From NCBI GenBank assembly GCA_029233965.1, contig JARGOP010000013.1, positions 3,564 through 67,563 of the forward strand: a stretch of DNA of 64,000 bases, written 5' to 3'. Positions 41,566 through 61,313 of this stretch are shown here, piece by piece; the first letter of the stretch is position 1; each line of letters starts with the position of its first letter. The stretch is from Verrucomicrobiales bacterium. Lineage in GTDB: Bacteria; Verrucomicrobiota; Verrucomicrobiia; Verrucomicrobiales; DEV007. The notes beneath the pieces were generated by a model that saw only the letters and a program-made list of their open reading frames with translations, did no database searches and was not told where the DNA came from. A program made the position numbers and the translations under genes.

Positions 41566-41591
41566 GACGGAGCTTCGGCTCCGTCTTTTTT
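41566..41591 (+). terminator. Strong intrinsic terminator behind ilvBN
   Basis: Perfect 8-bp stem gacggagc/gctccgtc (41566-41573 with 41578-41585), a stable ttcg tetraloop and a run of six Ts. It ends the ilvB-ilvN transcript. Confidence 0.93.
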
Positions 41592-43036: not shown

Positions 43037-45016
43037 TCAGGGATGAACTTCTTCGATCATCACCAGCCAGTGGAGAAAGTGGATCGGGGGAATCGCAGCC
43101 GGAGACGCCGCTGAAAAAAGTTCTGCCGAAGTGATATCCGCACCGATATCATCGTCGTCTGCGCCTTTAAAATCGAGGGGCGAGCGGTTCGAGTCAGTGC
43201 TTTCACTCATCGCATTAATTCGCCCTGAAAGATGCACCGGGGTCGGGACGTTAAGCTGTTCCCCGAAACGCTTTTCCGGGGAAAAAATGGCGACGGGCGG
43301 GAAAAAAGATTCCCCCTCGGGGAGGCCACTTCCGGCCGGCACCGCCGTTGGAACCTGGTTAAAACTTTCCAGTAGATAGACACGTGCGGGTGTAACAATG
43401 GCAAATCCTTGAGTGAAATCAGTGAAATCAGCGCATTGGCGCAAGGCAACGGCTAACTGATCTGGCTGTGAGGGTATCGTTGGAGTAATGACTTCCGGTG
43501 ATGTCGCGTCGTGCTCAATGAGCAGGGAGTGGTTGACATCAACCGACGCCGCATCCGTGAGGGTCAGGAGAAAAGAGGGAAACAGTTCCGGCAGTACGAC
43601 AAGGGCGTGACGCCCGTTTTCGAGAATCTCCGTTTCGAAGGGAATCGACGGGTCTTCTCCGGCGAGTGGTGGATTCCAGTTTTCACCGCGCTCAAGAAGA
43701 TGCGTGCGGCGCAGACCGGTGTTATCAAGATAGGAAAACTCAACCGCCGTGGGAAGCTGAGAAGAGGGTGCGACTGCCTTGATCCGGGCAATCATGGCGG
43801 CTTGATTCGCACCGCGGGCATAATCATCCCATCCTACGGGACTGACCCTGTTGGCAGGATCAGTGCTCTCGGAACGGTAGAGGAAGTCCGTTCCCGCCAT
43901 AACATCCACAAAAAGCGAGCGTGCCTTCTCGCTACCGGAAGTCGAGGCTGCGTAAAAGTCTACCTGCGTTTGCCGCTCGCGCGCTTCGCGAATCCCGAGA
44001 TCGTCGAAGCCTTCGAAAAGGGATTCTCCCCCCACGGAAGTAGGTGCCGCCAGTGAAATCGAGCGTCGTGCCGCAAGTGATCCCGAGGCTGCACTGAAAG
44101 GACCAATCGCTTCCAGATCAGCCCCGTAGACAGGCCCTTCAACGTTTATGCTACTCCAGTTCGTCCCATCGGCGTGGCGTCCCAAATGAAGTCTTCCTGA
44201 GGCGGCAAGAGGAATCTGTGAGGGGATTTCATAGATGGAGAGCACAAAATTACGTTCCAAAACCTCATCCCGTCCCGGGTTAATGCGAGTGCGCAGCGTG
44301 AAAACCCACCAATTTCTCTTGGCCACAAAAAGCGAGCCGGGAGCACAATATCCGAAGCGGATCTGCGGATAAGTGAGAAGATTGTAGCGGGAATGAAGCG
44401 ATGCTGAGAGCGAAAGCCCCTTCTCGTCGAGAGGGTGGTAGGTTTTTTCCGGGGAGATGAGAGGAATGCTCGCATCGGCGGCAACGAGGGCAGAAGGCAG
44501 ATTTAAGCTCGCCGGCAGTTTCTCGGAGAGACCTGTGCTACTGATCAGATTCAAATTGGCCAGGTTCCCGGGGAGGACAAGGCCGTCTCCGGCAGGTGCT
44601 CCCACCGAGAAGTTATCGTTGAATCCGCTGGAGGCGGTATTCGCGGAGATTCCGACGAGACCGAGGGAGGCGGTCATCTCGGCGTCGAGAACTTCCCTGC
44701 TGTTGGAAAGTTCGATAGCGTCCTCAAATATTGACGCCCATGTGTAGGTCTCTGAAGATGATCCGCTGCCTTGCCGCATCGCGCCCATGGCACGGTTGGG
44801 GATAAGGTGGATAAGGGCTGCCAGGAAAGCATCCTCCCTTTGAGTGTAGTCCTGACGAAGCTGAGCCATTGACTGTGTCGAGGCCGACCTCAGGGAAACC
44901 AGAAAACTTCCCCCGAGAAGGGCAAGGAGAAAAGCGGAAGTTCCGACAACCATGAGAACGGTCGAGGCACCCCGCTGCGACGAGTTCGTTTTCTTTGAAT
45001 TCAAGATGGTCATCAT
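43037..45016 (-). CDS. Large prepilin-like pilus protein (PilX/GspK-like)
   Basis: 659 aa using the ATG at 45016; a start at 45013 is equal. The N-terminus (SSQRGASTVLMVVGTSAFLLALLGGS) has a prepilin-like Gly followed by a hydrophobic helix, but no Glu at +5, a trait of GspK/PilX-like tip proteins. The rest is a long Ser/Pro/Ala-rich, low-charge domain that is not recognised. It begins 16 nt past the preceding minor pilin gene. The size is far greater than usual for PilX (about 200 aa), so it may be an adhesive tip protein. Confidence 0.68.
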   Translation of the reverse strand: MMTILNSKKTNSSQRGASTVLMVVGTSAFLLALLGGSFLVSLRSASTQSMAQLRQDYTQREDAFLAALIHLIPNRAMGAMRQGSGSSSETYTWASIFEDAIELSNSREVLDAEMTASLGLVGISANTASSGFNDNFSVGAPAGDGLVLPGNLANLNLISSTGLSEKLPASLNLPSALVAADASIPLISPEKTYHPLDEKGLSLSASLHSRYNLLTYPQIRFGYCAPGSLFVAKRNWWVFTLRTRINPGRDEVLERNFVLSIYEIPSQIPLAASGRLHLGRHADGTNWSSINVEGPVYGADLEAIGPFSAASGSLAARRSISLAAPTSVGGESLFEGFDDLGIREARERQTQVDFYAASTSGSEKARSLFVDVMAGTDFLYRSESTDPANRVSPVGWDDYARGANQAAMIARIKAVAPSSQLPTAVEFSYLDNTGLRRTHLLERGENWNPPLAGEDPSIPFETEILENGRHALVVLPELFPSFLLTLTDAASVDVNHSLLIEHDATSPEVITPTIPSQPDQLAVALRQCADFTDFTQGFAIVTPARVYLLESFNQVPTAVPAGSGLPEGESFFPPVAIFSPEKRFGEQLNVPTPVHLSGRINAMSESTDSNRSPLDFKGADDDDIGADITSAELFSAASPAAIPPIHFLHWLVMIEEVHP

Positions 45017-45032
45017 ACGGTGATTCAAAGCG

Positions 45033-45560
45033 TCAGTCCGGGTTGCCACTGTAGGTGATCTCGGAGCCTGCTTCATCCTGAAGCGTAATTGAAAGAATTC
45101 CACTCAGGTTGGAAAATCGAACGGTAGTGGGGACGTGACTTATCGTCCATGAAGGCTCGCTCGGGACGCCGCCCAGAGGGCTCTCCAGGTAGTAGTGGAT
45201 ACCTCTTTCCCCGTTGGGACCCGGGCCCAGAATAGCTCGCCGAATCGATCCATCAGGTTGGAAAAAACGAAGTTGCAGAGCCGAACCTGACGAGTCGGGT
45301 GACGGTTCCCCGGCGATCGCGGAGGTCAGATCGGTATGAATTCGGTAGGAATCGGCCCGACTTATGATCGCCGCAAAGAGGGTATTAATCTGCGGCGCCT
45401 CATCACGCAAAAACTGAAAGTCGGCGATACGGCGGGAAAATTCGATTTGTTGTCCGATCAGAGCAAGTAATCCCACTGCAAGCCCCAGGGAAATCGAAAT
45501 GGCCATGGCCATTTCGATAAGCGTGAATGCGAGTATATGGTTTTTTCTTCGAATCTTCAT
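45033..45560 (-). CDS. Minor prepilin (PilW/GspJ-like)
   Basis: 175 aa. Short basic leader MKIRRKNHILA followed by FTLIEMAMAISISLGLAVGLLAL, the prepilin helix with Glu5; the residue before Phe is Ala rather than the usual Gly. The C-terminal domain is beta-rich (GIHYYLESPLGGVPSEPSW). Start overlaps the preceding stop by ATGA. Length and position next to a PilX/GspK-like gene suggest a PilW/GspJ counterpart. Confidence 0.82.
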   Translation of the reverse strand: MKIRRKNHILAFTLIEMAMAISISLGLAVGLLALIGQQIEFSRRIADFQFLRDEAPQINTLFAAIISRADSYRIHTDLTSAIAGEPSPDSSGSALQLRFFQPDGSIRRAILGPGPNGERGIHYYLESPLGGVPSEPSWTISHVPTTVRFSNLSGILSITLQDEAGSEITYSGNPD

Positions 45561-46111
45561 CGCACTCTGAGAATGGTTCGCGCTTTGTGATAATCACGTC
45601 CTGCGACACGATAGGAGATAACGGAACGCGCTTTCCAGGCCTCGGTGCGCGCCGGATTCGTTAGGAGGGTACCGCTACCACCGGCCAGATCGAGATTATT
45701 AGGATCAGGTTCGCGAAAACGAACAAGAGATGCACGAATCTCGCGCCCGCCCGGATAACGTCCTATCGCCACCTCTGTTTCGGAAAATTCGGGATACAGC
45801 GGCCAGGGAGACTCCGTTGAAACAAGTTCTGAAAAGGGGAGGCGAGAGGCCAGGGCTGTTTCGTGGGAAAGATAGGCGTCGGTCAGCGACTGCATCGCCG
45901 CCCACGATTGCATAGAGGATATCTGAATCGAGACTTTTAAGAGTATCACAGACAGCGCAGTCAAAAGCGCCATGGCCAGCGTGATCTCGACGAGGGAGAA
46001 AGCCCGCTGTCTATCCCTATTGCGGAACGATCTGTTCAGGGTGATCGAGGCGCACTGTGCAGAGATAGTAGAACGGGGATCAGTTGACCGTGTTGAGAGT
46101 TCCGTTGACAC
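45557..46111 (-). CDS. Minor prepilin (PilV/GspI-like)
   Basis: 184 aa. A leader of about 37 residues ends QRA before FSLVEITLAMALLTALSVILL (Glu5 prepilin helix). As in the next pilin, Ala replaces the usual Gly at -1. The start overlaps the upstream gene by 32 bases; a later start is possible. The rest is polar. By order it fits a PilV/GspI role. It is followed by the PilW-like gene with an ATGA. Confidence 0.78.
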   Translation of the reverse strand: MSTELSTRSTDPRSTISAQCASITLNRSFRNRDRQRAFSLVEITLAMALLTALSVILLKVSIQISSMQSWAAMQSLTDAYLSHETALASRLPFSELVSTESPWPLYPEFSETEVAIGRYPGGREIRASLVRFREPDPNNLDLAGGSGTLLTNPARTEAWKARSVISYRVAGRDYHKARTILRVR

Positions 46112-47099
46112 GAATCGTACGATCGATTTCGATGGTTAGATGTTGTAGTCTCTCCGCGCCAAAGGGTGTCACAGTAACTACCTCAAAAGTCCATAAGCCA
46201 TCCTCCCGGATGACGGAGTCAAGATCCTTAATCTGCAGAGTCTCGTTTTGAGGAACGGATCCGTCTACGAGGACAGAAGAACCTGGAACTACGATTCCTT
46301 CAGTACCGAGGACAGGCGGCCCCTTGTAGGCTTGGAGGTAAGTCCATGAGTCGGGGTAAAGGTCCACGTATTCAATCGAGAGATCGGGGAGGGCACCTTT
46401 AATGACCTGGCCATTGACGAGCCCTTCGAGCGAGTGGGTGGTCATCGGCCAGACTTGGAGCGTCACGGAGTCGAGAAGCGACTCGGGAGCCTGATAATCC
46501 TCCAGCGAGAAGACTGAGAAACGTTCCTCGCCGCGGATTTTAGTCCGGTCGGCACCGGGGATGCCATTCACCGGGTAAGCGAAGGAGTGTATTCCATTGT
46601 CTGTGACAGTCCCCTGAGATAGGAGATTTGCCAGGTCACGGTCAATTTCCGTGCCGATGGACTGCTCCGGATAAGCCTGGGCGTGTCTCAAGAGTTTCAC
46701 GGAACGCGCCGCTGGAGGGGCCGCCGGGTCTGAGGAAAGTCCTACTATATCCACTTCGACGGAGAAGGGCCGGTCTGCCCGGGTTCTGGGGACGGTTTCA
46801 TAGGGGTCCTCGGAAATGATGCGGACGGTGGAAACGGGAATGTAGGAATTAACGTAGGTGGAATCGAGGAGATAGCTCGTGAGAGGAGCGTTCCGAATCG
46901 ACCAAAGCTCGAAGCGCGCCCCATAAGGATTAATTTCCAGGGGGGATTGAATCTGGCCGGACTGAGCAACGCTTACATCCCACTCCAGATTATCCGGCAT
47001 TTGGATCTGGCGGATAAAGAAGACGTAGTCACTTCCGGAAACCTCGCGGAGTGGAGCACAGACGCAAAAAAGCAGGAGGGTAATGATCGCGTTCTTCAT
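46080..47099 (-). CDS. Secreted protein of unknown function in the pilus locus
   Basis: 339 aa with signal peptide (ITLLLFCVCAPLREVSG). The mature protein is beta-rich with many aromatic and proline residues (SDYVFFIRQIQMPDNLEW opening, IIVVPGSSVLVDGS-like strands). No family recognised. It sits between a group of exported unknowns and the minor pilins, 9 nt after the preceding gene, and its 3' end overlaps the next prepilin gene, so it is part of the operon. Perhaps a pilus-associated or secreted partner. Confidence 0.65.
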   Translation of the reverse strand: MKNAIITLLLFCVCAPLREVSGSDYVFFIRQIQMPDNLEWDVSVAQSGQIQSPLEINPYGARFELWSIRNAPLTSYLLDSTYVNSYIPVSTVRIISEDPYETVPRTRADRPFSVEVDIVGLSSDPAAPPAARSVKLLRHAQAYPEQSIGTEIDRDLANLLSQGTVTDNGIHSFAYPVNGIPGADRTKIRGEERFSVFSLEDYQAPESLLDSVTLQVWPMTTHSLEGLVNGQVIKGALPDLSIEYVDLYPDSWTYLQAYKGPPVLGTEGIVVPGSSVLVDGSVPQNETLQIKDLDSVIREDGLWTFEVVTVTPFGAERLQHLTIEIDRTIRVNGTLNTVN

Positions 47100-47108
47100 T
47101 CTTTCACT

Positions 47109-47753
47109 TCAAGGCTGGGCAGTAACACTGGGACCGCCGGGGTCGGGCTTGGTCCGGAGAGTGGATTCACCGGAGCGCTCCCCGTCGCCGGATTCCTCAG
47201 TGAAGGCAGTTGGAAGCACGGAGATTGGACCGCCCTTGTAGGTGGCGATGATAATTTTGCCGCTGGAGCGCAGGGCGTTTCTCTCTTCAGCGGAAAACGG
47301 AGTCTTGCCCAGGGCCCGTTCGCGGGTAACCGGCTCGGCGTGAAGCCAGGACCGGTTTACCTCAAAGAATTTCGACCATGGCTGAAACTCGGCACCGTCC
47401 TTGGTTCCTACGCGGCTCTCGAGAGCTTCCGGGAGGTGCAGCACTGACCGTTTCGGGACAAGGGTCATCAAACCGCCGTGATTCAGCACGGTAGACTCGG
47501 CGATAAGATCACGACCGTGCATTCCCCGGGAAGGATCTGAACCGGGATTCCCGGGCGGCACCAGCTTGCGAATCGGATCGTGCTGCCTGGCGTGGCGAAG
47601 CCGGTTGGAGAGCTCCTCGGCGGAGACAGGCTCTGACATGACCGGCGACCCGGTCTTTTGGCCAGTTACCTCCTGCGCCATCGTAAGCGGCAAAAAAGCC
47701 ATGTCCCCCAATAAAAAGGCCAGGACCAAGGCGGCAGCGAAATGTATCTTCAT
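47109..47753 (-). CDS. Secreted hypothetical protein in the pilus locus
   Basis: 214 aa with signal peptide (FAAALVLAFLLGDMAFLPLTMA). A conserved-looking core reads VLNHGGLMTLVPKRSVLHLPEALESR, then PWSKFFEVNRSWL and GKIIIATYKGGPISVLP. I have the impression of similar proteins in other Verrucomicrobia, but no function is known to me. It ends 9 nt before the next gene. Confidence 0.68.
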   Translation of the reverse strand: MKIHFAAALVLAFLLGDMAFLPLTMAQEVTGQKTGSPVMSEPVSAEELSNRLRHARQHDPIRKLVPPGNPGSDPSRGMHGRDLIAESTVLNHGGLMTLVPKRSVLHLPEALESRVGTKDGAEFQPWSKFFEVNRSWLHAEPVTRERALGKTPFSAEERNALRSSGKIIIATYKGGPISVLPTAFTEESGDGERSGESTLRTKPDPGGPSVTAQP

Positions 47754-47821
47754 CGGGACTGATCGGTGGCTGTGCGGACGGTGGTGGAGACGGGCGCTGC
47801 TTTTCTCACAAGGAAAAATGT

Positions 47822-48766
47822 TTACCGACGCCTGCGCCCCCTCCTCAACCTGGAGTAAATTTCATCGTCGACCGTTGGGTCAGTGTCATTCTCGAGCAGA
47901 GGACTTCCACCGGGATTGCTGGAGTCGACGCCATCAACATTGTTCCCGTGCCCGTTGTTGTTGTTTATTTTGTCATAAACACTGACCAGAAGAGCCATGT
48001 CCTGAAGGTCATAGCCACCGTGACTCATGTCGGTATGTGTCAACTCCATGAGGTAGACTACGTCCCGTGGGCCGATCTTTATACGTCCCTGATTGTCTAG
48101 GATGGGAGAAAGAAAACTCTCGAGGGAAGGCTGCTGGTAGAGCGGTGTTGTCGTCGGCGGCGTGTCACCGTTGCGAAGCGCCCTGATGTTGGTGGAACCG
48201 GTGGTCGAGCTGTAGCGCGTGCTCCAGGATCTGCTTGATGGTGAATAACGACCGGCCACGTCAAGCGTTTCCCCCTGAAGTAGCCTCGTCGTGTGGACTA
48301 TCGCATTCGGAACAACCTGGCTGTTCGTTCCGTAAAAGATGCGGCTAAGGCTACCTCCGCCTTTGCTCACGCTCGCTTCGGTAGGAATCCATTCCCAACG
48401 GGTTATCTCTCCGCGGTAATTAAGCCAGACGCGCTTCACTGAAGTTCCGAGAACCCGGATGTCAGCATACACATCCCGCTGAGCTCTGATCGTACCGCCA
48501 TTTTCGATCGTGATGATGTCAGAGACGACTTCCGGAACCGTGACGGACCAGGTGAGAGTTGGATGAGTCCCGGCCTGGGCGACAGTCGGGTAGGCGCTGA
48601 GAGTGCCGACGGGAATAACCGGCGAACGGTTTTGACTCCAGACCGTCGAGGGAACAGAAAAAACGAGTGCACAAGCTAGCAGTCCCAGAATCTCAGTTCG
48701 TTGTTTTCTTAGCGTCAGAGGAGATGAGGGAAGGGATTTCATGCTCATTTGTGTTGGAATCGACAT
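47822..48766 (-). CDS. Secreted hypothetical protein in the pilus locus
   Basis: 314 aa from the ATG at 48766 (alternatives 48748 and 48742). A membrane/signal helix lies around GLLACALVFSVPSTVWS. The mature part opens PVGTLSAYPTVAQAGTHPTLTWSVTVP, an Ig-like or beta-sandwich type sequence, and ends in an unusual tail: an Asn/Gly/Asp stretch (NNNNGHGNNVDGVDSSNPGG) and an Arg-rich end RLRRGRRRR. No known family. Near it are three other exported proteins of the same operon. Confidence 0.65.
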   Translation of the reverse strand: MSIPTQMSMKSLPSSPLTLRKQRTEILGLLACALVFSVPSTVWSQNRSPVIPVGTLSAYPTVAQAGTHPTLTWSVTVPEVVSDIITIENGGTIRAQRDVYADIRVLGTSVKRVWLNYRGEITRWEWIPTEASVSKGGGSLSRIFYGTNSQVVPNAIVHTTRLLQGETLDVAGRYSPSSRSWSTRYSSTTGSTNIRALRNGDTPPTTTPLYQQPSLESFLSPILDNQGRIKIGPRDVVYLMELTHTDMSHGGYDLQDMALLVSVYDKINNNNGHGNNVDGVDSSNPGGSPLLENDTDPTVDDEIYSRLRRGRRRR

Positions 48767-48910
48767 GCTCCTGAGACGGACAACTTGAGATGTTATGCAG
48801 CCAATGCGGAAAAAAATACGCTTTTTCCCGTGAAATGTCATTAAAAATTTTTCCCGTTTTTTTAAAAACTTTAGTATGAGAGTGAATTGTTCTTCGTAGA
48901 AAAGGCTGCC

Positions 48911-49720
48911 TCATTTTGGAGCGCCTCCCTTTTCTTCCTGCTTTTGCCATGCAGCAACCAGCCGCCCGAGAAATTCACGACGCTCCTCGATCTCGTTTCT
49001 TCGCTCATCAGAGAGGAGATCCAACCTTCCTTGCGCTCCGCTTTCCACCCAGAGGGCGTCAAAGCGATTCAGGCAAGCAGCAGCATTTAAAATCTGCGTT
49101 TCTTCATGAGCCGGACTGGCTGGGGCGCGATGCGGGATACTGCCGGACTGAGAGGTTGAAAGGTGAAGGTTAATTGACGCGGCGGATGCGGTAAGCCAGG
49201 GCTCGGGATCTTCGTTTTCACTGGAGATCCAATGAAGCGCGAACTTGGAGAGCTCGTCGGCGCGTTGCTGGCCTTTCTCCTGATCGATCCCGTCCATTGA
49301 GGTAAGGAAAAGATACAATGCCTCATAGATGGTGTAACTTCCCGGATCAAGGAGAAAAGCGTTGACCAGCATCTTACGCAAATCCCGACGGATCGCGATC
49401 AGGTGGGCACCGCCCGGGGGAGTCGGATTGTTCCGACGTGACTTTTCCTCCCGGGCACGTGCCAGCCATCCAACGCCGATTGAATGGATTTCGCCCTCCA
49501 GTCCGACGTGCCAGACCCTGTCGATATCATCTTCGGCGAGGCGCGAGAAAAGGGATCCAAAGGCCGAACCGCGGAGAGAAAAGGGATTTGGATTCAGTAA
49601 AGCGTGGCGGGAGTGCTGCTGCGGCACCGGTGAAGAAGAGGGACTGATTCCGGATAAAAAAACCGCTGTCACGCCGACCACAAGCGCCACGGTGGCAAGG
49701 ATAGGGTTCATGTATTTCAT
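48911..49720 (-). CDS. Membrane-anchored protein of unknown function (PilG-like position)
   Basis: 269 aa. A single N-terminal hydrophobic segment (6-26, ATVALVVGVTAVFLSGI) anchors a helical, charged domain. Four bases separate it from the ABC permease, so it is co-transcribed. In Myxococcus, pilG encodes a membrane-anchored partner of the PilHI transporter; the same order suggests a similar role, but no sequence similarity to PilG was established. Otherwise unrecognised. Confidence 0.62.
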   Translation of the reverse strand: MKYMNPILATVALVVGVTAVFLSGISPSSSPVPQQHSRHALLNPNPFSLRGSAFGSLFSRLAEDDIDRVWHVGLEGEIHSIGVGWLARAREEKSRRNNPTPPGGAHLIAIRRDLRKMLVNAFLLDPGSYTIYEALYLFLTSMDGIDQEKGQQRADELSKFALHWISSENEDPEPWLTASAASINLHLSTSQSGSIPHRAPASPAHEETQILNAAACLNRFDALWVESGAQGRLDLLSDERRNEIEERREFLGRLVAAWQKQEEKGGAPK

Positions 49721-49724
49721 CCGG

Positions 49725-50492
49725 TTACCTTCCGGGGCGAAAAAGAGTCAACGCGACAACCCCGAGGATGATCCCCCAACCGCCGAAATAAAGAATAAAT
49801 TGACCGAAGACGCCGGGAGGGAGAGGCCCGAGCTTGAAGACGAGCCGGTCCGTCAAATCGGCCAGATGGTAGTGGGGAAGACAGAGGCTCCCGAGGCTCG
49901 AAGCAATCCCGCCCCCGGACAAAAACGGGGCGAATTTTTCCTGAATCACCAATCCGTAAATGAGAAAAGCCGCGACGATGATCCAGGAGACAACCGGGTT
50001 CAGCCGGGTGCCGAGAGAAAAGGCGAGAAGGCAAAGAGGTGCCGTCACGATCAAATAAAGGGTTCCGTATTGCAAGTTCGTGACCGACCAGAGACGGGCT
50101 TCTGCGGAGTCCGAAGGGGTGCAAAGATAGAGAGAGATCAGGATTGTCTCGATCAGCAACACAATTGAGGGAAAGACAAGACCGGCATTAATCTGAAGCG
50201 CAAGCATGGCTTTCGGGAAGCGGTTACGGGAAGCGGGAAGCAACAGTTCGAAAATACCGCCGCGCTGCCATCGGGAACCGGTTGAGGAAGCTTCCACGAG
50301 AATCCATATCACGGTTGTCAGCCAGAGCAGGACCCATGCCGCCTGAGCCCGGGCAGGTTCGATCAGGGAGGGTTTGAGCGAGACCGGGGTCAGTTCTGGA
50401 AGAAAGATCGCCAGAAGGGGAAGGAGGAAGACAAAAACGAGGATGACCTTCCGCGAAAAGAGAGAGGATAAATAAAGCCTAAGACCACTCAT
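49725..50492 (-). CDS. ABC transporter permease (PilI-like position)
   Basis: 255 aa with about six hydrophobic segments (RKVILVFVFLLPLLAIF first, then AAWVLLWLTTVIWILVEA, FPSIVLLIETILISLYL and others to the C-terminus), the ABC-2 export permease topology. Start overlaps the ATPase stop by four bases (ATGA). With the ATPase it forms a small exporter. Its place inside the pilus operon recalls the Myxococcus PilHI ABC transporter. Confidence 0.82.
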   Translation of the reverse strand: MSGLRLYLSSLFSRKVILVFVFLLPLLAIFLPELTPVSLKPSLIEPARAQAAWVLLWLTTVIWILVEASSTGSRWQRGGIFELLLPASRNRFPKAMLALQINAGLVFPSIVLLIETILISLYLCTPSDSAEARLWSVTNLQYGTLYLIVTAPLCLLAFSLGTRLNPVVSWIIVAAFLIYGLVIQEKFAPFLSGGGIASSLGSLCLPHYHLADLTDRLVFKLGPLPPGVFGQFILYFGGWGIILGVVALTLFRPGR

Positions 50493-51214
50493 GGTTCGGA
50501 TCGGGTGGTGAAGAGCGAGCGCCTCAGGCCCGACCAGTCGAGGAATCCGTCCTTCGAATCAACCAACCCGACGGAGTTTTCCCGGATCACCAGCGCGGCG
50601 TCAGCCTCTAGTGCGGCGTCGTCAGGGTGGTGTGAAACGATACGACAGACCCCCTCCTTACGTTCGCGCCACCAGGACCTGACTAGGTCCCGCGCCACAA
50701 AGTCCAGGCCGGAGAGAGGTTCGTCGAAAAGCAGAACACAACCACCTTCCTGATTTGCCGCCGCCGCTTCCCCGAGAACAGCGACGAGCTTCTGGCGATT
50801 TCCTCGCGATAAGGTGGCGTAATCACGACCGAGCGGTAATTCCAATTCGTCGGCAAAAGAAAGGGAGGTCTTGAAAGAGTCATGATCGAGAAGCGCCCGC
50901 AGGATCTCACGGGGCTTGTGGCCGGCATCGAAGGTGAGATCGTCGCAGAAATGGAGAAGCCTGCCATCGATTCGAAAAGCGCCGTTAAGGGGGGGAGTGA
51001 GGCTGCCAAGCGTGCGTAGGAGAGTGGTTTTGCCGGAACCGTTCCGGGCGAGAAGAAGATAATGCCCGGGTCCGAGACATATCTCTGACTCGAAGGAGGC
51101 GACACGGGTCGGCGGCCGCCGTAGGGAGCGATAACCGATTTCGAGCCCCTTGGGGAAAAAGACTCCACCCTTGGAGGGGACGGTTGAACGCGGGCTGGTC
51201 TCCGTTGAGTGCAT
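50489..51214 (-). CDS. ABC transporter ATP-binding protein (PilH-like position)
   Basis: 241 aa from the ATG at 51214; the open frame reaches 51328 but the extra part is not family-like. Walker A ARNGSGKTT, the ABC signature variant LSRGNRQK (Arg for Gly-Gly), Walker B VLLFDEP and the switch His in RIVSHHP. Together with the permease gene it powers an exporter or pilus-assembly transporter. The N-terminal 25 residues are a basic linker. Confidence 0.9.
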   Translation of the reverse strand: MHSTETSPRSTVPSKGGVFFPKGLEIGYRSLRRPPTRVASFESEICLGPGHYLLLARNGSGKTTLLRTLGSLTPPLNGAFRIDGRLLHFCDDLTFDAGHKPREILRALLDHDSFKTSLSFADELELPLGRDYATLSRGNRQKLVAVLGEAAAANQEGGCVLLFDEPLSGLDFVARDLVRSWWRERKEGVCRIVSHHPDDAALEADAALVIRENSVGLVDSKDGFLDWSGLRRSLFTTRSEP

Positions 51215-51392
51215 GGAGGGGGAGACTATCGCATGCCTCTCGTTCACGCAAGATACTCTTCCGTCCTGAGCGGCGCAAAAGGCTCGAACGGGGCAACAAT
51301 TATACGGGCCGCTCGCTACGAAAACCATCGGCTCCGGAAGGCCTGTAGGAGCTTGGATGAAAGTGCCGTAGGATCAGGGCCGGAAAATTCGA

Positions 51393-51785: not shown

Positions 51786-51821
51786 AGGTTTAAAGATGAG
51801 GAAATTATCCCGCTTTCCGAC

Positions 51822-52991: not shown

Positions 52992-54676
52992 TCCGCGTTG
53001 GTGAGATCAATGGATTTACTCAGGGCTTCCAGATCGGTGCGCCCCTCGCGGAGCAGCTCAAGACCACTGTCTCTCAGTGAAGGAAGCCGACCATCCCGCC
53101 GGACCTCGCGCTCCATCTCGTAGGGGCTCAGAGTTCCCTTGGAAAGTTCGTCCGACCAGCGAGCCGTGATTGGAATGATTTCGAGGATGGCGGCGCGCCC
53201 GTGATACCCCCGCCCCTGACAGCTGTGACATCCCCCGGTATTCCGCACGTAAACGGGCAGATCCCTCATCGAATCCTCCAGGTTGAACTTGCGGATATCC
53301 CGCTCCAGAAGACGTGGCTTGGGCACCTTACAGACAGGGCAGAGCAGTTTGAGGAGGCGCTGGGCGCAGGCTGCTTTGAGCGTTTGCGCAATCTTCCAGC
53401 GTTCAATGCCTATCTGTTCGAAACGCTCAATGATTTGTGAGGCTCTCGGAGTATGGATCGTTGTTAAAACCTTGTGACCGGTAATTGCGGCCTCGATCGC
53501 AAGTTCTGCTGAATCAAGATCCCTCACCTCACCCATGAGAATGATGTCGGGATCGCTACGCATGAAGCTGGCAATCATTGCCTTGAATTCGTTTGGTCGG
53601 ATATCGCAGTGGATCACTCCCTGAATTTCATCCTCGACCGGATTTTCGAGGGTGAGAATATTATCCTCGGGACGGTTCAATTCACGCAGCATCGCGTTCA
53701 GAGTGGTCGATTTGCCGGAGCCGGTCGGTCCCGACATGACGATAATCCCGGAGGGAATCGCCATTACCCGCTCAAGTTCAAAAAGGGTTGCGGGATCGAA
53801 GGCGAGCGAACCGACCCCCAGTTTTGCCTCGAAATGGGCCTTGTCTAGAAGTCGCATCGTCACATGATAGCCGCGGTAAGTGCGATGCCTTTCAAAGCGG
53901 ATATCGATGGAGCGATTCAGGTAATTAACTCCGAAACGTCCTGAAATCCCCGGGCTCTTCACCCGCTCTTCAGGTGCCAAACCCATGAGATTAAGAAGGA
54001 AGGCATCAATCCGATTTTTCAGCTTAATTGGAATCGGATACTTCGTTCCCATATCTCCATCGATACGGTAGCTGTAGGTGACATCGCCAATCCCACATTT
54101 GACGTGGATGTCTGAAGCTCTTAATCGTATGGCATCGGAAAGGATCTTGGCGACGAGCCTTGCGAGTGGCTCCTCATGTTCCGCATTGATGTCAAAATAA
54201 TGCTTTTCTTCGGAGCTTTCGTCGACCTCTATCGACTCGAGTTCGTTTCGTGAAGGCCCCTGAGTTCCGGAAACGGATTCAATAACGGGAATAATTTCGG
54301 CATAGGGAACGAGGATCCGAACGGGTTCCAGGTCCTCGAAGCGGGACGAGATGGCGTCCTCCGCCGTCGTATCCCATGGATTGACAACGGCGAAATAAAA
54401 TCGGGTCTGGTCCCTCGCGATCGGAACAAAAAGCCCGCGATTGAGCAGTGCCGGATCGAAAATTTCGAGGAGGACTGGATCAATGAAGTCTCTGATCCGT
54501 CCTAAAAACGGAATGCCGCATTGGGAGGCGATGATTGAGAGGATCCTCGCCGAGGTAGAAGCCCGGATCGCGGCGTCATCTCCGGCAAAGTGCCCCTCCG
54601 GCGCGAGGGTAATGATTTCGTCAATAACCTGCCGGGTAAATGTTTCATTGACGGGAAATCCAAGATCAAGATTCAT
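52988..54676 (-). CDS. Pilus extension/secretion ATPase (PilB/GspE)
   Basis: 562 aa. An MshEN-like N-terminal region (about 50-135, IPFLGRIRDFIDP) is followed by the GspE core: HVKCGIGDVTYSYRIDG, Walker A GPTGSGKST (316-324), Asp box LENPVED, Walker B LMGEVRD and the zinc-type tetracysteine C-x2-C...C-x2-C (CPVCKVP and CHSCQG). It hydrolyses ATP to drive pilin assembly. Overlaps the preceding small gene and the PilC gene. Confidence 0.95.
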   Translation of the reverse strand: MNLDLGFPVNETFTRQVIDEIITLAPEGHFAGDDAAIRASTSARILSIIASQCGIPFLGRIRDFIDPVLLEIFDPALLNRGLFVPIARDQTRFYFAVVNPWDTTAEDAISSRFEDLEPVRILVPYAEIIPVIESVSGTQGPSRNELESIEVDESSEEKHYFDINAEHEEPLARLVAKILSDAIRLRASDIHVKCGIGDVTYSYRIDGDMGTKYPIPIKLKNRIDAFLLNLMGLAPEERVKSPGISGRFGVNYLNRSIDIRFERHRTYRGYHVTMRLLDKAHFEAKLGVGSLAFDPATLFELERVMAIPSGIIVMSGPTGSGKSTTLNAMLRELNRPEDNILTLENPVEDEIQGVIHCDIRPNEFKAMIASFMRSDPDIILMGEVRDLDSAELAIEAAITGHKVLTTIHTPRASQIIERFEQIGIERWKIAQTLKAACAQRLLKLLCPVCKVPKPRLLERDIRKFNLEDSMRDLPVYVRNTGGCHSCQGRGYHGRAAILEIIPITARWSDELSKGTLSPYEMEREVRRDGRLPSLRDSGLELLREGRTDLEALSKSIDLTNAE

Positions 54677-55275
54677 GAAGCGAAATGACGTCGACAGAGG
54701 CTCTGCCAGCTCTCAAAACCCGTCCGAACCGGGAAAATAACCGGAGTGACGACACTGCGGCTTCGGAAAATCCGGACAATTTCGGCGGCAAGGGCTTCCG
54801 CGGTGAGGGGGTTGATTGACGCAAGGGTTAGGAAACAGCCCGACTCCTCCTGCAGGACCGGAGTCTGAAGAATCCGGCAAAGCTCGGCGATGTCGCCTTC
54901 CTGGGTGTAAAAATCAATAGGAACAGCCATCCGGTCAGCGAAACCGAGGAAAGGAAAGCGCAGCCCGGCAGCAAAGGCAAACTGTTCGAGGAGGTCTTCG
55001 CGGAGATGATGGGGAAGACCGCTTCGCGAGAAAGCGTGGGAAAGAAAATCCTCAGGCACTTCACCAACCGTTCCGGCAACGTTTTCTTTGAGGTAGTCTG
55101 TTACGAGAGACTCTTCGATTGCAAGGTCGGGGCAATGTGTATTAACGATTTCAAAAGTTTTCAGCGCCACGGTTTTTCGTATTGAGTGCCCTACGGCTTT
55201 CGGAGAGAAATCGTCTCGATTTTTTCCAGAATCATCCTGAGATGGTGCGACGGATTTTTTGTCCATAATAGTCAT
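54673..55275 (-). CDS. Free-standing MshEN-like domain protein
   Basis: 200 aa (start at 55275 or 55266). The C-terminal two thirds, GLRFPFLGFADRMAVPIDF to IFPVRTGFESW, shows the same pattern as the N-terminal MshEN/T2SSE_N domain of the next gene's product (FPFLG compare IPFLG, VP after it, then a TLASINPLTAEAL compare a FAVVNPWDTTAED motif). No ATPase follows. MshEN domains in some ATPases bind c-di-GMP. It may thus be a regulatory subunit of PilB, encoded just upstream with an overlapping start. Confidence 0.6.
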   Translation of the reverse strand: MTIMDKKSVAPSQDDSGKNRDDFSPKAVGHSIRKTVALKTFEIVNTHCPDLAIEESLVTDYLKENVAGTVGEVPEDFLSHAFSRSGLPHHLREDLLEQFAFAAGLRFPFLGFADRMAVPIDFYTQEGDIAELCRILQTPVLQEESGCFLTLASINPLTAEALAAEIVRIFRSRSVVTPVIFPVRTGFESWQSLCRRHFAS

Positions 55276-55369
55276 TCACCTCTCGGCTTGCAGGAGTCTG
55301 CTTGAGAGTCAGAAAACCGATCTCTTATGCACAGATATCAGTATGGTAAATCTTGGCGAGAGGATTTTC

Positions 55370-57586
55370 TCAAGGGGGGGAGTAAAGTTGCCTCAAAAAA
55401 TTGCCGAAGGGAGGCGTGACGTGCGACGGGGCTGAACGTTCCGGGGTAGGACCCTGGTTCGGGTTGAGAAGATGTGGATTGAGAACCGGTTGCGCCCGTG
55501 GTAGATTGGCGCGCAGGTTGGGAGCGGTATTGCGATCCGGGTGGACCGGATCAGGGGAGGCAAACTCGTCGGGAAGGATGTGGCTTTGATGGATTTTCCG
55601 GCTGATAAAGTCGGACGCGCCGGAATCGTCCGGGAGATAGAGCAACGGAGTCACGATGAAAACGAGACTGGTGTGATCCTTTTGTTGATCGGAATTCTTG
55701 AATAAGTGCCTCAGCGCCGGGACATCGCCGAAAACCGGCACCTTAGCACTGTCCTCCGAGCGGACCTCCTCGTAAAATCCGCCAATCAAGAGCGAGTGTC
55801 CGTTTGGAACCCTCGCCACCGTTGTAACAGAGGACTCGTTGACCCGCGGGTAGCTGTTTCCGGAAGAACTGGTGATATATTCGACGACCTGAGCGGAGCG
55901 GGGGCGCAGTTTCATGCGAATAGTGCCGTCGGGAAGGATCGTCGGAGTGACCGCGAGAGTCACTCCGACCTCCCGTGTCGTCGATGGATCTCCGACACTG
56001 TCTTCATCGTCGATTTTATAGCGGACCTCCTCGCTCGAATTTTGCCCGCCTGTCGTTGCGGTAACAGTGGTGGTGATGATTGGAATCCTGTCTACGACAG
56101 AAATCAGTCCTTCCTCATTATCTTCCGTGATGAGAGTCGGGCTCGACTCTTGTTCCGCAAGGCCTCCGGTATTCAGAGCTTTAAAGACCGCCTCGATCTG
56201 AATAGGAGAGAGCACGAGGTGGCCTTCCTCACCGTCTCCGGAGGAGGAAGAGTTGAAATTACGCGTCGTTTCCACGAGACTGAGACCCGTGCCTGTAGTG
56301 TTTCGGGCAACAACGGAGGTGGCGCTGTCGAGCCCGGGAAGTCCGAAAATGGAATTAAGGCTTCCGGATGCATTGAGGCTGATTCCACCCTCGTTCCCCA
56401 GGATGGAAGACCAGTCGACTCCGACTAGGTTGCGTGAGGAGGTGGATATCCTCAGGATACGGGTCTCGATAGCGATTTGTTGCTTGGGCTGATCTATTTC
56501 CTCCAGAAAGGCAAGGAGTCTTTTGACTTGCTTTTCGTTGTCAGAAATCACAAGGGTATTTGTCTTGGTCTCGAACTCAAGGATTCCTGTGCCCGGAGTC
56601 AGGAAGGGCTGGAGAATGATTTTTGTCTGCTCCATATCATCGGGCCGGAGATACTTCAGCTGGTAGCGGACCGCCTCCTGTGGCAGGTGCGCCAGCTGTT
56701 GTGAGTTAAAGACGTAAACGGTATTGTCCGTGGAGTGGATTGTGAGACCGAACATGAGGCCCACTTCCTGCATCTGAGTGACTGGGTCACCATCGCGAAG
56801 TTCGCCGGTTACGACAAACTCCGGTGTGTCCAGCGAGGAGTTGTGAAAGTACTGAAGATCGGCCAATCGGGCGAGGTGTTGGAACACATCGTTGAGGGGA
56901 GCTTTTTCAAGCCAGAATCCAGATTCGGTCGTTTCAATGAAGGTTTCCGTGGTGTTACTGCTGCTTTCCGTTGACAAAGGAACGGTATCCCGGGCGGAAG
57001 TGGAAACCTGGGCGAGAAGCAGAGGGTGATCTCCAGGTGAGTTTCCCGAATCAGAATTCGTCGGGGAGTCTGTGAAAGTGCCGACCTCGTCTCGCGAAGA
57101 CCCCTCGTTCCGAAGGGGATGGACCGCTGGGACCGATTCCAATGGCAAGCCTGGTGGAAGAGAATTGGAGACGGTACCTTCCACCCCTTCAGACAGAAAC
57201 GGCAACGAAGTTCGGGCGATACCGGCGGGAGCTCCTGAAGCCGGTGTAGCCCAGTAGCCGGAAGAAGTATCTGGTTCAGCTCTATTGGAAACCGCGTCAG
57301 CGGCGTGAGCTGGCCCCGGACGAGGCGAAGATTGCCCGATCCAGTCTCCCTCGAAGCGGAGTGCCTCCTCGGTCATTCCGGAAGAAGCCAAAAAGTAGGT
57401 AGCCCCCAGTAGAATCGTGATAATAAAGGAGACCGAGATAATCCGGGGGAGCGAGTGCAAACGGTCTGACGGGGCTGCTCTTCGCATAGTTACCGAGCGA
57501 GATTCATCAGAGTTCATGGAATCCTCAGTAAGAAGGAAACCAAGGTCTCCGGAAAGATCTTCAGACTTGACGGGACGCTCGGGCAT
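55370..57586 (-). CDS. Outer membrane secretin (PilQ/GspD)
   Basis: 738 aa; the ATG at 57517 with a GAGG at optimal distance is an alternative start. An N-terminal hydrophobic segment (about 48-68) comes after a 47-residue polar start, odd for a secretin, which normally has a cleavable signal. Then a Ser/Pro-rich linker to about 210, an STN/N0 domain (LEKAPLNDVFQHLARLADL), an N1 domain (YQLKYLRPDDMEQTKIIL) and the secretin domain with VPVFGDVPALRHLF and FIVTPLLY. It forms the outer membrane pore for the pilus. Confidence 0.93.
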   Translation of the reverse strand: MPERPVKSEDLSGDLGFLLTEDSMNSDESRSVTMRRAAPSDRLHSLPRIISVSFIITILLGATYFLASSGMTEEALRFEGDWIGQSSPRPGPAHAADAVSNRAEPDTSSGYWATPASGAPAGIARTSLPFLSEGVEGTVSNSLPPGLPLESVPAVHPLRNEGSSRDEVGTFTDSPTNSDSGNSPGDHPLLLAQVSTSARDTVPLSTESSSNTTETFIETTESGFWLEKAPLNDVFQHLARLADLQYFHNSSLDTPEFVVTGELRDGDPVTQMQEVGLMFGLTIHSTDNTVYVFNSQQLAHLPQEAVRYQLKYLRPDDMEQTKIILQPFLTPGTGILEFETKTNTLVISDNEKQVKRLLAFLEEIDQPKQQIAIETRILRISTSSRNLVGVDWSSILGNEGGISLNASGSLNSIFGLPGLDSATSVVARNTTGTGLSLVETTRNFNSSSSGDGEEGHLVLSPIQIEAVFKALNTGGLAEQESSPTLITEDNEEGLISVVDRIPIITTTVTATTGGQNSSEEVRYKIDDEDSVGDPSTTREVGVTLAVTPTILPDGTIRMKLRPRSAQVVEYITSSSGNSYPRVNESSVTTVARVPNGHSLLIGGFYEEVRSEDSAKVPVFGDVPALRHLFKNSDQQKDHTSLVFIVTPLLYLPDDSGASDFISRKIHQSHILPDEFASPDPVHPDRNTAPNLRANLPRAQPVLNPHLLNPNQGPTPERSAPSHVTPPFGNFLRQLYSPP

Positions 57587-57701
57587 AAGTTTCCACTAGG
57601 GATCAGATCGGGGCGCATACAAGAGAGTTAAAAGGCAAACTGAGTCGCTTTCAAGAGAATTTAAAAACTATGCATCCCAAGACGACTCGCCTCCGGGCTC
57701 T

Positions 57702-58364
57702 CTACCGAATGGGAATAACCCCGGATCGCGGGAAAATTCCCTTTTCTTCAGGCGGGTCCGAAGAGGGGGCCTTTCTGCGTAGAATGAAGGCACCGGTGCG
57801 AAAAGGCCTGACCACTTCTTCCCCAGTGTCAGAATCGCGAAAGTGAACGCCTTCAGCCGTAATGGTTACGAAAACAAGGTTTACTAGAATTCCTTCGATC
57901 TGTATTGGAAGCGAAGCGCCTTCCTGATAGAGTCTGCCGCGGACTACAATTTGATTTTTCGACGGATAGATTCCGGTAAGGGGCAGAGCCCCGACCGCTC
58001 GGGAAGTTAACCCGGAAGGCGGTCTTTCCTGCTCCTCCTCGATCTGAGCCTCTTCGGGCTCTAGAACAAACTCGGGCGCTTTTTTCTCTGAGGTCATCGG
58101 AAACCCGAATGGGTCAAGAACCCTCGAATTCATTCGGATTTTTTCCTGAATCCCACTCATCCGCAACGCTTCGCGTGATGCCGGAGGCATCCCGGCTTCC
58201 GAATCGTCAACCGCATCTACGCCGAGAGCACTCTCCTGGGCCGGCAGATTCAGGAAAAGAGGAGGGGAGAAGAAAAAGGCAATCAACAGGAAGATGAACC
58301 GGTAATGTGCCGGGATCGCCAATTCCTGCAGAGAATGGGCTTTGGAGTCGGGAAAGAAATTCAT
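57702..58364 (-). CDS. PilP-like pilus assembly protein (by position)
   Basis: 220 aa. A hydrophobic signal/anchor segment (YRFIFLLIAFFFSPPLFLNL) lies at 22-41, an acidic linker follows, and a compact beta domain (GIYPSKNQIVVRGRLYQEG to RTGAFILRRK) is at the C-terminus, similar in size to the PilP/GspC HR domain. It follows the PilO gene with a 4-nt overlap and precedes the secretin, exactly the pilO-pilP-pilQ order. Family assignment rests on order and shape, not motif. Confidence 0.62.
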   Translation of the reverse strand: MNFFPDSKAHSLQELAIPAHYRFIFLLIAFFFSPPLFLNLPAQESALGVDAVDDSEAGMPPASREALRMSGIQEKIRMNSRVLDPFGFPMTSEKKAPEFVLEPEEAQIEEEQERPPSGLTSRAVGALPLTGIYPSKNQIVVRGRLYQEGASLPIQIEGILVNLVFVTITAEGVHFRDSDTGEEVVRPFRTGAFILRRKAPSSDPPEEKGIFPRSGVIPIR

Positions 58365-58933
58365 GTTCGAATCGCGGGAGCATCCCAGTGAAGATAAACA
58401 ATTCGAAAAATGAGATACGGGCCGCCGCCAGTCGACGCCTCAACTCCGCCCCTCGTCACCTCAAGGCTCTCGAGCATCAGGGCCGGCATTTCGGATTCGA
58501 AAGTTGCCAGCAGGGTCTGCATTTCTTGAAAATACCCTTCGAAAGTCAGGGCGATTCGCGAATGAGGCAGGTTGGTGGGGCCGGTTACCGCCCCGCCCAC
58601 GGGAGCCTGCCCCATCGCGGTGCGCCTCAGGGAACCGGGCGGAAATTCGGAGAGGGTGCGATCAATCAGCTGGGTGAATTTATGAAAAAAATCCTCACGA
58701 CCCAGTTCTTCCCATGTCGTAAGATCTCCCCGCCTCTCTCCGGACCCCATGAACTCTTCAAGCAGACTGACCTGCGCTTTCACCATTCGCAGCTCTTCAC
58801 GTGCAAGCTCACGTTTCTCCATTTCCTCACTGACTTGTGAGCGGACATAGAAAATCACACCCAGCAACAACACGGCCAGGGCGGCTGGAACGGCATATCC
58901 GTGAACCAGAATTGCTTGGCGGTGACGATTCAT
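58361..58933 (-). CDS. PilO-like pilus alignment protein
   Basis: 190 aa from the ATG at 58933. A short cytoplasmic tail, one membrane segment (about 12-32), a coiled coil (about 33-60, SEEMEKRELAREELRMVKAQ) and a ferredoxin-like domain (IALTFEGYFQEMQTLLATFE) match PilO/GspM. PilO forms the periplasmic bridge from PilN to PilP. It overlaps the PilP gene by four bases. The upstream open extension to 59050 overlaps the preceding gene and is not used. Confidence 0.8.
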   Translation of the reverse strand: MNRHRQAILVHGYAVPAALAVLLLGVIFYVRSQVSEEMEKRELAREELRMVKAQVSLLEEFMGSGERRGDLTTWEELGREDFFHKFTQLIDRTLSEFPPGSLRRTAMGQAPVGGAVTGPTNLPHSRIALTFEGYFQEMQTLLATFESEMPALMLESLEVTRGGVEASTGGGPYLIFRIVYLHWDAPAIRT

Positions 58934-58967
58934 GATGATTTTCGGGGATACCCTGGCGGGGAGGAAA

Positions 58968-60887
58968 TTAATTGGTAATGCGGGGCAGGGTCGGGAGTGA
59001 GTCCATCCTCTCAGGTGCGACTCGATTTCCAAGGGAAAGGTCAAACGCATTGCGGAAGCGTCGCGTGAACTGGAGGGGGAAGTAGGGTGACTCCGGCATG
59101 CTTGCCTGTCGTTGTTGAAAGGTAAGTTCCAGCGATGATTCTAAGTCGTCACTTAGATAAGGGGCTTCATTCTCAAGAGCAATCTGCTTTACGATGCCAC
59201 TCACTTCGCGCTCCGAACCGAGAGAGGCGATATTGGCCGCCAATTCCGGGTCAATGTAGCCCGAAAAGCGCCAACGCCTCGTGTAGCCGACTCGATTGTT
59301 CGCAATCACCGGAGCCTCGAGCCTGTAGGAAAAATCCTGCAGAAGAAGACCGCTGTTTTCAGGGAAAAGGCGAAGGGGAAGCTCCAAAGCGAGCCAGCCC
59401 TCCGAGCGGTTCGAAAGGATGTCATCCCAAGCCTGCCAGCGTTTCTTTTCCTCCATAAGAACGGCAAGCTGCTCATTTGCCTCAGTTACGGCCTCGGGCG
59501 AGCTGCTCCACTCGGGGGAGTTTACTTTGCGAAAGACATCCGTCCCGAAATAGAGCCCGGATAGAATGAAGAGAAAACAGAGTGCTGAGCGAAAGAAGCG
59601 ACTTGTTCGGGCGAGAAGGAGATCGGCCCGGCCCGGCAGCCGCGCCGCTTCCTCGGTAGTAGTAGAATAAAAATCGAGAAGGGCGGCTTCCGCCAGCGCC
59701 CCGTCATCTGGGTCGGCGTGAGGCAATTCCGCCTCGGGAATTCCTTCAGCAAACCCGGCGGATTCCGGAAGGAGCCCCAGAGCCATCGATGTAATGGTGA
59801 TTCCGGGAAAAGAATTTGCGACCGGACCAAAGTCGGGAACGCCGTTCTCCGGGGGGGACCGATCCAGGAAAAGAAGCCGTGAAACGGGAACATTTCCCGT
59901 CGCGAAAACGCTTTGAACAAGATCGGAGAGATCCGCGGCTTCCTGCCCTTGCGGAGTCGGCCTCGGCAAAACCCGGATGATTTCGGGATGCCCGCTATTA
60001 TCCAAAACGGCATAAACGGTCTGCTTCGGGTAGCGCACCACCGCCAAAAGACTGCCCTTTTCAGATTCAACAGAGTCGTTACCGGCAAGAGTAAGAGCCT
60101 GTCGCAGCATTTCGAGTGCGGCACTCCGCGCTTCCGCAGCAATGGGGTAGCCGAGAGAATTGCCGAACCCGCGCAATTCGTCGACGAAACAGCGAAACCG
60201 GTTGGAAAGACTCGCTCCAAACCGGTCCCTTGATTCCGGATCCCCCGCTGCGAGGGGGAGAAGCCTCCAGGCGCTCGCTTCGGCGGAAACGGAACGGTCA
60301 CCGAGGGCCTTCTCGGGCGCGAGGATGAGCAGTTCATCCAGGTCGGACAGGTCGGTCTCGGCATCAAATTCCAATGCCAGCTTCCTGATGTGAAAGGATT
60401 CGGAAAGGTGCAAAATCACCCCCAGTCCTGAATCACGAGCTTCGCGGTAAGGCTGAATCAAGTCCCTCACGAGTCCCTGTAATGACTCCCGCGAAGCGGG
60501 CGAAAGGCGTGGGCTGGTCTCGCCTTCGTCTGTGACAAGGGACAGGTCGGGGAGCCGGGGACCGTCCAGCCACCGGTCCGAAGCCAACTCGCGAATTTTC
60601 GAGAGGACGAGCTCCCCTGAAACAAAAAGATGCCACTGAACAGCCTGCTGGTCGGCCCGCCGATACCAACCCAAGTTTCTCAAGTGACCTTCTGAAGGTC
60701 TTGACAGCTGTTTTGACTGCCGGTAAAGGGAGCGCAGGGAACTGTTGACCGGGAGATGTTCCATGAGAACCTGAACCCCGTCCGACGCGATGGGGAGAGC
60801 TAAGGGAAGGTGTGGAATGCGGCTGACCACAAGAGCGGGAAGAATCCTGCGGTCAGCTAGCTTTCCGGGGGGGGATTCACGCAACAC
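58968..60887 (-). CDS. Fused PilM-PilN-type (GspL-like) assembly protein
   Basis: 639 aa. Residues 1 to about 430 are cytoplasmic and in the PilM/GspL place (LLAVVRYPKQTVYAVLDN suggests the actin-like fold); a single membrane segment lies near 435-455 (SALCFLFILSGLYFGTDVF); residues about 460-639 include a coiled coil (EANEQLAVLMEEKKRWQAW) and a periplasmic PilN-like domain. In most type IV pili PilM and PilN are separate; here one gene supplies both, as in GspL. The actin ATP-binding motifs are not obvious, so PilM-type ATP binding is unproven. Confidence 0.72.
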   Translation of the reverse strand: MLRESPPGKLADRRILPALVVSRIPHLPLALPIASDGVQVLMEHLPVNSSLRSLYRQSKQLSRPSEGHLRNLGWYRRADQQAVQWHLFVSGELVLSKIRELASDRWLDGPRLPDLSLVTDEGETSPRLSPASRESLQGLVRDLIQPYREARDSGLGVILHLSESFHIRKLALEFDAETDLSDLDELLILAPEKALGDRSVSAEASAWRLLPLAAGDPESRDRFGASLSNRFRCFVDELRGFGNSLGYPIAAEARSAALEMLRQALTLAGNDSVESEKGSLLAVVRYPKQTVYAVLDNSGHPEIIRVLPRPTPQGQEAADLSDLVQSVFATGNVPVSRLLFLDRSPPENGVPDFGPVANSFPGITITSMALGLLPESAGFAEGIPEAELPHADPDDGALAEAALLDFYSTTTEEAARLPGRADLLLARTSRFFRSALCFLFILSGLYFGTDVFRKVNSPEWSSSPEAVTEANEQLAVLMEEKKRWQAWDDILSNRSEGWLALELPLRLFPENSGLLLQDFSYRLEAPVIANNRVGYTRRWRFSGYIDPELAANIASLGSEREVSGIVKQIALENEAPYLSDDLESSLELTFQQRQASMPESPYFPLQFTRRFRNAFDLSLGNRVAPERMDSLPTLPRITN

Positions 60888-60929
60888 GGCATGTTTATGC
60901 TGAACCGCTCAGCACTGAAGGCAGGGAGA

Positions 60930-61313
60930 CTACCAACCTGCCGTATCTGCCGGTGCGTGACCTGCGGCGCTGCAAGTCAGGTAAGCAGTCCCGACCGCGG
61001 GAACTGTTCCGAGCCAGGTGTAGGTTCCTCCCGAAGGACAGACCGGAGCCGACGCGATTAACTTACCTGTTCCCACAAGATCGGTTTGCGTGAGAGTACC
61101 ACCTGTGGCGAGGTCATTGAGATTTTGATGGGATCGAACTGCCTTCTGCACTGCGGAGATCTGCATGATGCACCGGGACTTGTTGGTCGCCTCGCGATAA
61201 TTCTGAACTCCGATAAACAGCACTGCCACCAGTCCCAAGAGGACTGCAATGACAACAGTGATTTCGATGAGGGTTAGGCCGGCTTCGTTCTTGCGGGTGG
61301 GAGTAAATTTCAT
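60930..61313 (-). CDS. Major type IV pilin
   Basis: 127 aa from the ATG at 61313, preceded by GGAG at good distance. A leader (MKFTPTRKNEAG) and the mature start LTLIEITVVIAVLLGLVAVLF have the conserved Gly-1 and Glu5. The short globular part has three cysteines (RCIMQ, APVCPSGG and YLTCSAAGH); the last two could form the C-terminal disulfide loop typical of major pilins. As the first gene of the pil cluster after PilT, it is probably the main fibre subunit. A small hairpin gctga/tcagc follows the stop region but lacks a T-run. Confidence 0.9.
   Translation of the reverse strand: MKFTPTRKNEAGLTLIEITVVIAVLLGLVAVLFIGVQNYREATNKSRCIMQISAVQKAVRSHQNLNDLATGGTLTQTDLVGTGKLIASAPVCPSGGTYTWLGTVPAVGTAYLTCSAAGHAPADTAGW

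Follow-up and report, generated by a model that had tools for sequence, protein, structure and literature searches.

The window analysed here, a stretch of 64,000 nucleotides, comes from the draft genome (4.83 Mb) of a Verrucomicrobiales bacterium. Among the named relatives found, the nearest is a MAG that bears the name Akkermansiaceae bacterium UBA6138 (U339 identity, 91%). A sequence-only reading had listed a run of pilus- and secretion-like genes in it; all of these open reading frames were found on the minus strand with unchanged coordinates and are real, while two genes of the locus, encoding a PilT-family ATPase (61655-62935) and an additional prepilin, P150 (41654-42106), had been overlooked. 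The genes form an engine block (PilT, major pilin, PilMN-like, PilO, PilP, secretin, MshEN-like, PilB, PilC, S130 and P150), an ABC block (ABCa, ABCm and U269) and a cassette (U339b, U214, U339, C184, B175 and A688). Families of the order are denoted f1, f2, f4 and f5, f1 being the window's own.

61655..62935, minus strand: PilT-family retraction ATPase (NCBIfam pilT_fam, 6.8e-70, under the curated cut-off)
60930..61400, minus strand: major pilin with a GLTLIEI leader (N_methyl, 0.0016; GspG, 0.0018)
58968..60887, minus strand: PilM-PilN-like fusion of 639 aa, named from position and topology, with one transmembrane segment near residue 434
58361..59050, minus strand: PilO/GspM-like protein (T2SSM_b, 0.0011; GspM_XpsM, 1.5e-6)
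57702..58364, minus strand: PilP-like periplasmic protein, labelled by position, with a conserved DPFG motif
55370..57586, minus strand: secretin (Pfam Secretin, 4.5e-37)
54673..55275, minus strand: conserved soluble protein before PilB (MshEN in the sequence-only reading), syntenic in relatives
52988..54676, minus strand: PilB extension ATPase with an MshEN domain (T2SSE, 3.7e-76; MshEN, 3.5e-8)
51822..52991, minus strand: PilC inner-membrane platform (T2SSF, 1.7e-34)
51393..51785, minus strand: S130, small protein with an MQQT N-terminus and one C-terminal transmembrane segment, 3' of PilC, syntenic in f1 and f2
50489..51328, minus strand: ABC ATPase (ABCa), PilH-like by context (ABC_tran, 2.5e-7)
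49725..50492, minus strand: ABC permease (ABCm), PilI-like by context, with six hydrophobic segments
48911..49720, minus strand: U269, membrane-anchored by one N-terminal transmembrane segment, in a PilG-like position
47822..48841, minus strand: U339b, exported, LecB-like beta-sandwich in a predicted model, with a D-x-Q-D motif
47109..47753, minus strand: U214, small exported protein
46080..47099, minus strand: U339, exported, with predicted tandem Ig/MG-like beta domains (model mean pLDDT 85.7; fold matches)
45557..46111, minus strand: C184, minor prepilin, GspI/PilV-like (N_methyl, 2.2e-4; weak XpsI and ComGE matches)
45033..45560, minus strand: B175, minor prepilin, GspJ/PilW-like by order, with a GFTLxEM leader in which Glu is invariant
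43037..45103, minus strand: A688, large minor-pilin-like protein, GspK/PilX-like, with a leader without Glu5, a transmembrane segment and a very large domain
41654..42106, minus strand: P150, additional prepilin with a GLSLIEI leader
41565..41586, no strand assigned: terminator-like stem-loop just downstream of P150, of a kind not above shuffled sequences in number in this region

The identities of PilB, PilC and the secretin are backed by both Pfam and NCBIfam. PilB reaches 304 bits with type_IV_pilB and 274 bits with GspE, and the GspD and PilQ models of NCBIfam score near-equally on the secretin, GspD being marginally best. The earlier labels PilM-N and PilP fit by position and topology and find no match in Pfam or NCBIfam, nor does the PilMN-like protein find one in the PDB by profile search. 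The label "lone MshEN" could not be confirmed for the soluble protein before PilB: neither Pfam nor NCBIfam matched it, and a profile comparison with the N-terminal part of the PilB of the locus gave no match. The PilT gene adjoins the pilus locus in other genera and families and lies within the locus in f1, f2, f4 and f5, and the major pilin is present in two to four tandem copies in relatives (G005, G016, G033, G028 and G060). A prepilin peptidase is encoded outside the locus, at G000:C23 of the same genome. Of the components by which a type IV pilus (T4P) is recognized, a PilB-type ATPase with PilC and a secretin, PilT, and class III prepilins with a prepilin peptidase are found; for the alignment complex there are a PilO-like protein with weak GspM matches and PilMN and PilP candidates named from position and topology. 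Judged from its genes, the locus most likely encodes a complete T4P machine of Verrucomicrobiales, probably a retractable one. In the loci L074, L060, L059 and L050, the two to four tandem major pilin genes are often near-identical and lie between PilT and PilMN.

The exported proteins without a known family belong to a conserved cassette, U339b-U214-U339-minor pilins (C184, B175)-A688, whose order is kept in tens of named Verrucomicrobiales loci. C184, B175 and A688 resemble the GspI-J-K and PilV-W-X sets: gene order and leader features agree with those of the type II secretion system (T2SS) triad, from which the window set differs in the weak sequence matches of C184 and in the presence of PilT in the locus. 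The leader Glu at position 5 is nearly invariant in C184. PilX and GspK are without Glu5; PilX tops the minor pilins below PilY1, and GspK is the proposed tip of the pseudopilus (PMC7541494). A profile search of A688 against solved structures gave no match, and PDB profile searches with U339, U214, U339b, A688 and PilMN together yielded nothing useful; U214, S130 and U269 matched no known family. The U339 model consists of tandem beta-sandwich domains whose best Z scores come from complement/TEP chains, mostly at large rmsd, and is accordingly read as tandem Ig/MG-like domains and no more.

The very large GspK-like member calls to mind the Verru_Chthon cassette A-B-C-D (TIGR02600, 02598, 02599 and 02596), which likewise encodes prepilin-like proteins and is present several times per genome. 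However, A688 matched TIGR02600 in no scan, and profile comparison aligned the N-terminal transmembrane region alone. Membership of A688, B175 and C184 in Verru_Chthon was rejected on this weak profile comparison and because the proteins of the window and of its Haloferula relatives matched none of these four NCBIfam models. A true Verru_Chthon cassette in the order A-B-C-D is located elsewhere in the genome (G000:C51:4998-11870, L163); its members also weakly match the GspK, GspI, GspJ and GspH models.

U339b is predicted to have a LecB-like lectin fold, and sugar binding by it is putative. In its model, a domain spanning about residues 110-290 is predicted with confidence. Foldseek alone gave no significant match, the LecB-type entries being absent from its top 50, whereas a second look with VIA-align ranked 15 LecB-type entries first (Z 8.4-10.9, the next entry at 5.8; rmsd 2.5-3.3 over 106-116 residues). 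All of 75 U339b homologues keep D278 and D281, and Q280 is present in 74/75 and E266 in 72/74. The alignment ends place residue 291 of U339b on residue 114 of PA-IIL, so that, assuming a gap-free last stretch, the counterparts of D278, Q280 and D281 are D101, N103 and D104 of LecB. These three residues are calcium ligands in LecB, where the full site for two calcium ions and a sugar comprises E95, D96, D99, D101, N103, D104 and the C-terminus (PMC8752737). In addition, 26 homologues end exactly ten residues past the last Asp of the motif, as LecB does from D104 to its C-terminal G114. Unlike the LecB/PA-IIL lectins, U339b carries Gly at the D99 position and a longer loop, and Pfam found no match in 17 homologues, all of which count against a full lectin site. 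Few parts of U339b are as conserved as its N-terminal segment (about residues 74-106), yet this segment is modelled with low confidence, as would be expected of a segment that folds on a partner.

Many U339b proteins end in a tag of the form NNGHGNNxDGVDSSNPG with an acidic stretch after it (window 47822-47960; 44 ORFs in the fetched loci). This is possibly a metal-binding or sorting tag, and proteins without the lectin-like part carry it too (L055, L193). At L055 3017-4504 the tag segment is fused to a U339 domain in a single protein, and at L047 5506-8521 U339b is present in three tandem copies within one cassette.

Co-occurrence was assessed in 192 genomes, drawn once from the order and each at least 90% complete. 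U339 and U214 were found in an identical set of 83 genomes, the PilMN-like gene in 84, A688 in 85, the ABC permease and U269 in 82 each and U339b in 57. Presence and absence of U339 and PilMN agree in 187/192 genomes (both in 81, neither in 106, five mismatched), and any pair among U339, A688, PilMN and the ABC permease occurs together in 80-83 of the 192 (Fisher p about 1e-47 or smaller per pair, a statistic that ignores shared ancestry). The pattern spans four families and 16-17 genera, and several genera of f1 have neither U339 nor PilMN among the genes found. The PilMN-like gene and the permease are nearly always single-copy, the latter in all but two genomes; few genomes have more than one PilMN match, and some of these extra matches are pieces of split genes. 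Among the 37 U339-bearing genomes of f2, 27 have at least two U339 matches, with an average of 3 and a maximum of ten, numbers that are upper bounds because some matches are fragments. All 19 matched genomes of f4 carry U339 and PilMN and none carries U339b, which is thus not essential.

These gene blocks are found again in dozens of genomes, far more often than chance would give, with protein identities of roughly 25-60% outside the closest relatives and higher values for PilB and PilT. Most often in f1, the cassette is followed by the ABC block and then by the engine. The window and its two closest relatives differ in having the ABC block and the cassette between S130 and P150, an arrangement best explained by block translocation; in other genomes P150 directly follows S130, which confirms that it belongs to the system. 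Synteny of cassette and core is kept in f1 and f4, and the cassettes of f2 are scattered, multiplied and often far from the core. When related genomes were searched for cassette genes missing from, or dispersed away from, the pil core, co-occurrence was kept in f1, f2 and f4, and linkage held in f1 and f4 but failed in f2. The near-perfect tie in presence and absence, together with the synteny in f1 and f4, makes it well supported at the level of gene distribution that these exported proteins and the pil core are a functional unit. Four-base start/stop overlaps (PilO/PilP, MshEN-like/PilB, PilB/PilC, ABCa/ABCm and C184/B175) fit co-transcription in the window, as had been proposed for the locus as one unit; a single operon is, however, no conserved trait, since other genera and families have the blocks in a different order or split between the two strands. 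Counts of promoter- and terminator-like sites in the region do not exceed those in shuffled sequences. Beside the pilus locus, a short ORF (63533-63976) matches the C-terminal part of glycosyl hydrolase family 88.

Two known systems are the closest points of comparison. The T4aP of Myxococcus xanthus (PMC7541494, PMC3724824, PMC13190605) shares with the window the T4P core, an ABC transporter with an extra protein in the pil locus, and minor pilins with a Glu5-less member, and it has several tip clusters per genome with proposed exchangeable tips, a precedent for several tip clusters on one machine. The ABC ATPase adjoins the permease and U269 in most genomes, and by gene arrangement the ABC pair with U269 resembles PilHI and PilG of Myxococcus. 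In contrast to Myxococcus, PilM and PilN of the window appear fused, A688 is large, and exported Ig-like, U214 and LecB-like proteins stand in the place of PilY1; PilY1 (PF05567) was matched in 0 of the 192 genomes, a count to be read beside control genomes that were silent too. The other system, the pilus-like Amuc_1098-1102 system of Akkermansia (PMC4960237), similarly has a verrucomicrobial secretin, a PilM-like protein and a protein in the PilO position, but occupies a separate locus in the same genome (G000:C125:1632-8763, L165), where Amuc_1098, 1100 and 1102 score above cut-off and Amuc_1101 reaches 607 against 650 bits. The window secretin scores 49.8 with the Amuc_1098-type model against a cut-off of 750, and the other core proteins of the window have no Amuc match; with its proteins below the cut-offs of Amuc_1098, 1100, 1101 and 1102, identity of the window locus with this system was rejected. 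Two more secretins are encoded in the same genome, one of the Amuc_1098 family at G000:C85 and a GspD-like one at G000:C27.

From gene content, synteny, co-occurrence, predicted folds and leader features as observed, we infer a working model that assigns a location to the tip, an order to its components, and roles in adhesion, retraction and transport. One pilus engine with exchangeable priming and tip complexes is the best explanation of the whole, to which we give a probability of about two in three. The secretin, the alignment complex of PilMN, PilO and the PilP-like protein, PilC, PilB and PilT would assemble and pull a major-pilin fibre, with PilB extending and PilT retracting it. C184, B175 and A688 would prime the fibre and end at its tip, A688 capping the other two, and U339, U214 and, where present, U339b would be carried on A688 as the outermost part, contacting surfaces or glycans and so filling the role that PilY1 has elsewhere. 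The ABC pair and U269 may help pilus biogenesis. One machine could then show different tips, the U339 copies reaching ten in one family and the core being single. That the exported proteins between the ABC transporter and the minor pilins form a distinct tip complex had been suggested from the sequence; the functional association stands, U269 goes with the ABC pair and S130 with PilC, and a place at the tip is the best reading of what is left, strengthened by the GspI/J/K-like triad and the fold predictions. The exported proteins without a known family are probably the parts of an exchangeable pilus tip of a kind not described before.

Other readings of the same genes were weighed. The sequence-only reading had described a T4P/T2SS hybrid, and the locus could be a T2SS variant in which a pseudopilus with a GspI/J/K-type tip pushes out U339, U214 and U339b as substrates. 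The PilO-like protein does match GspM, the secretin fits GspD marginally best, the pilin matches GspG, and the minor pilin triad is I-J-K-like. A T2SS, on the other hand, works without a PilT-type retraction ATPase, and here a PilT-family gene lies in the locus, as it does in four families; PilB scores above GspE, and relatives have tandem major pilin genes. We consider this variant unlikely, and with PilT conserved in the locus T4P is the better name, even though the PilO-like protein, secretin and pilin fit T2SS models equally well or better.

It is likewise rather improbable that U339, U214 and U339b work in the periplasm, as assembly factors or chaperones of the minor pilins, and play no part at the surface. 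Such a function would agree with the strict co-occurrence of U339 and U214, with the N-terminal signal-like segments that are the only ones in the three proteins, and with Ig-like folds, which pilus chaperones have as well (the Foldseek matches include a Csu chaperone-subunit complex); yet U339 reaches up to ten matches per genome and the lectin-like domain is lost in some lineages, and this multiplication and loss are more in keeping with a surface part that diversifies than with an assembly factor that stays constant. Since the f2 cassettes are often far from the core, another machine could use them, and the genome does have further secretins (Amuc_1098-type or GspD-like, for example) that the cassettes might serve, co-occurrence with the locus then being due to ancestry alone. 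This we regard as very improbable, given that presence and absence track the PilMN-like gene in all but 5 of the 192 genomes, that U339 and PilMN are jointly absent from several f1 genera, and that cassette and core are syntenic in f1 and f4. Within the preferred reading of one engine with exchangeable tips, a more specific proposal is put forward tentatively and may well prove wrong: a T4P tip lacking PilY1, composed of A688 with Ig-like proteins, U214 and LecB-like metal-dependent glycan binders, which is multiplied and swapped to give several glycan specificities per cell.

No description of the cassette was found in a limited full-text search that covered few papers from subscription journals, and the literature searched held little on the pili of Verrucomicrobiota beyond the work on the Akkermansia secretin. 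The locus defines a second verrucomicrobial machine, distinct from Amuc_1098-1102, which about 44% of the high-quality genomes sampled from the order carry, and the analysis names specific candidates for tip proteins. Should the tip reading be true, these bacteria would have a second solution to the part played by PilY1, and their recognition of surfaces and glycans would become directly testable.
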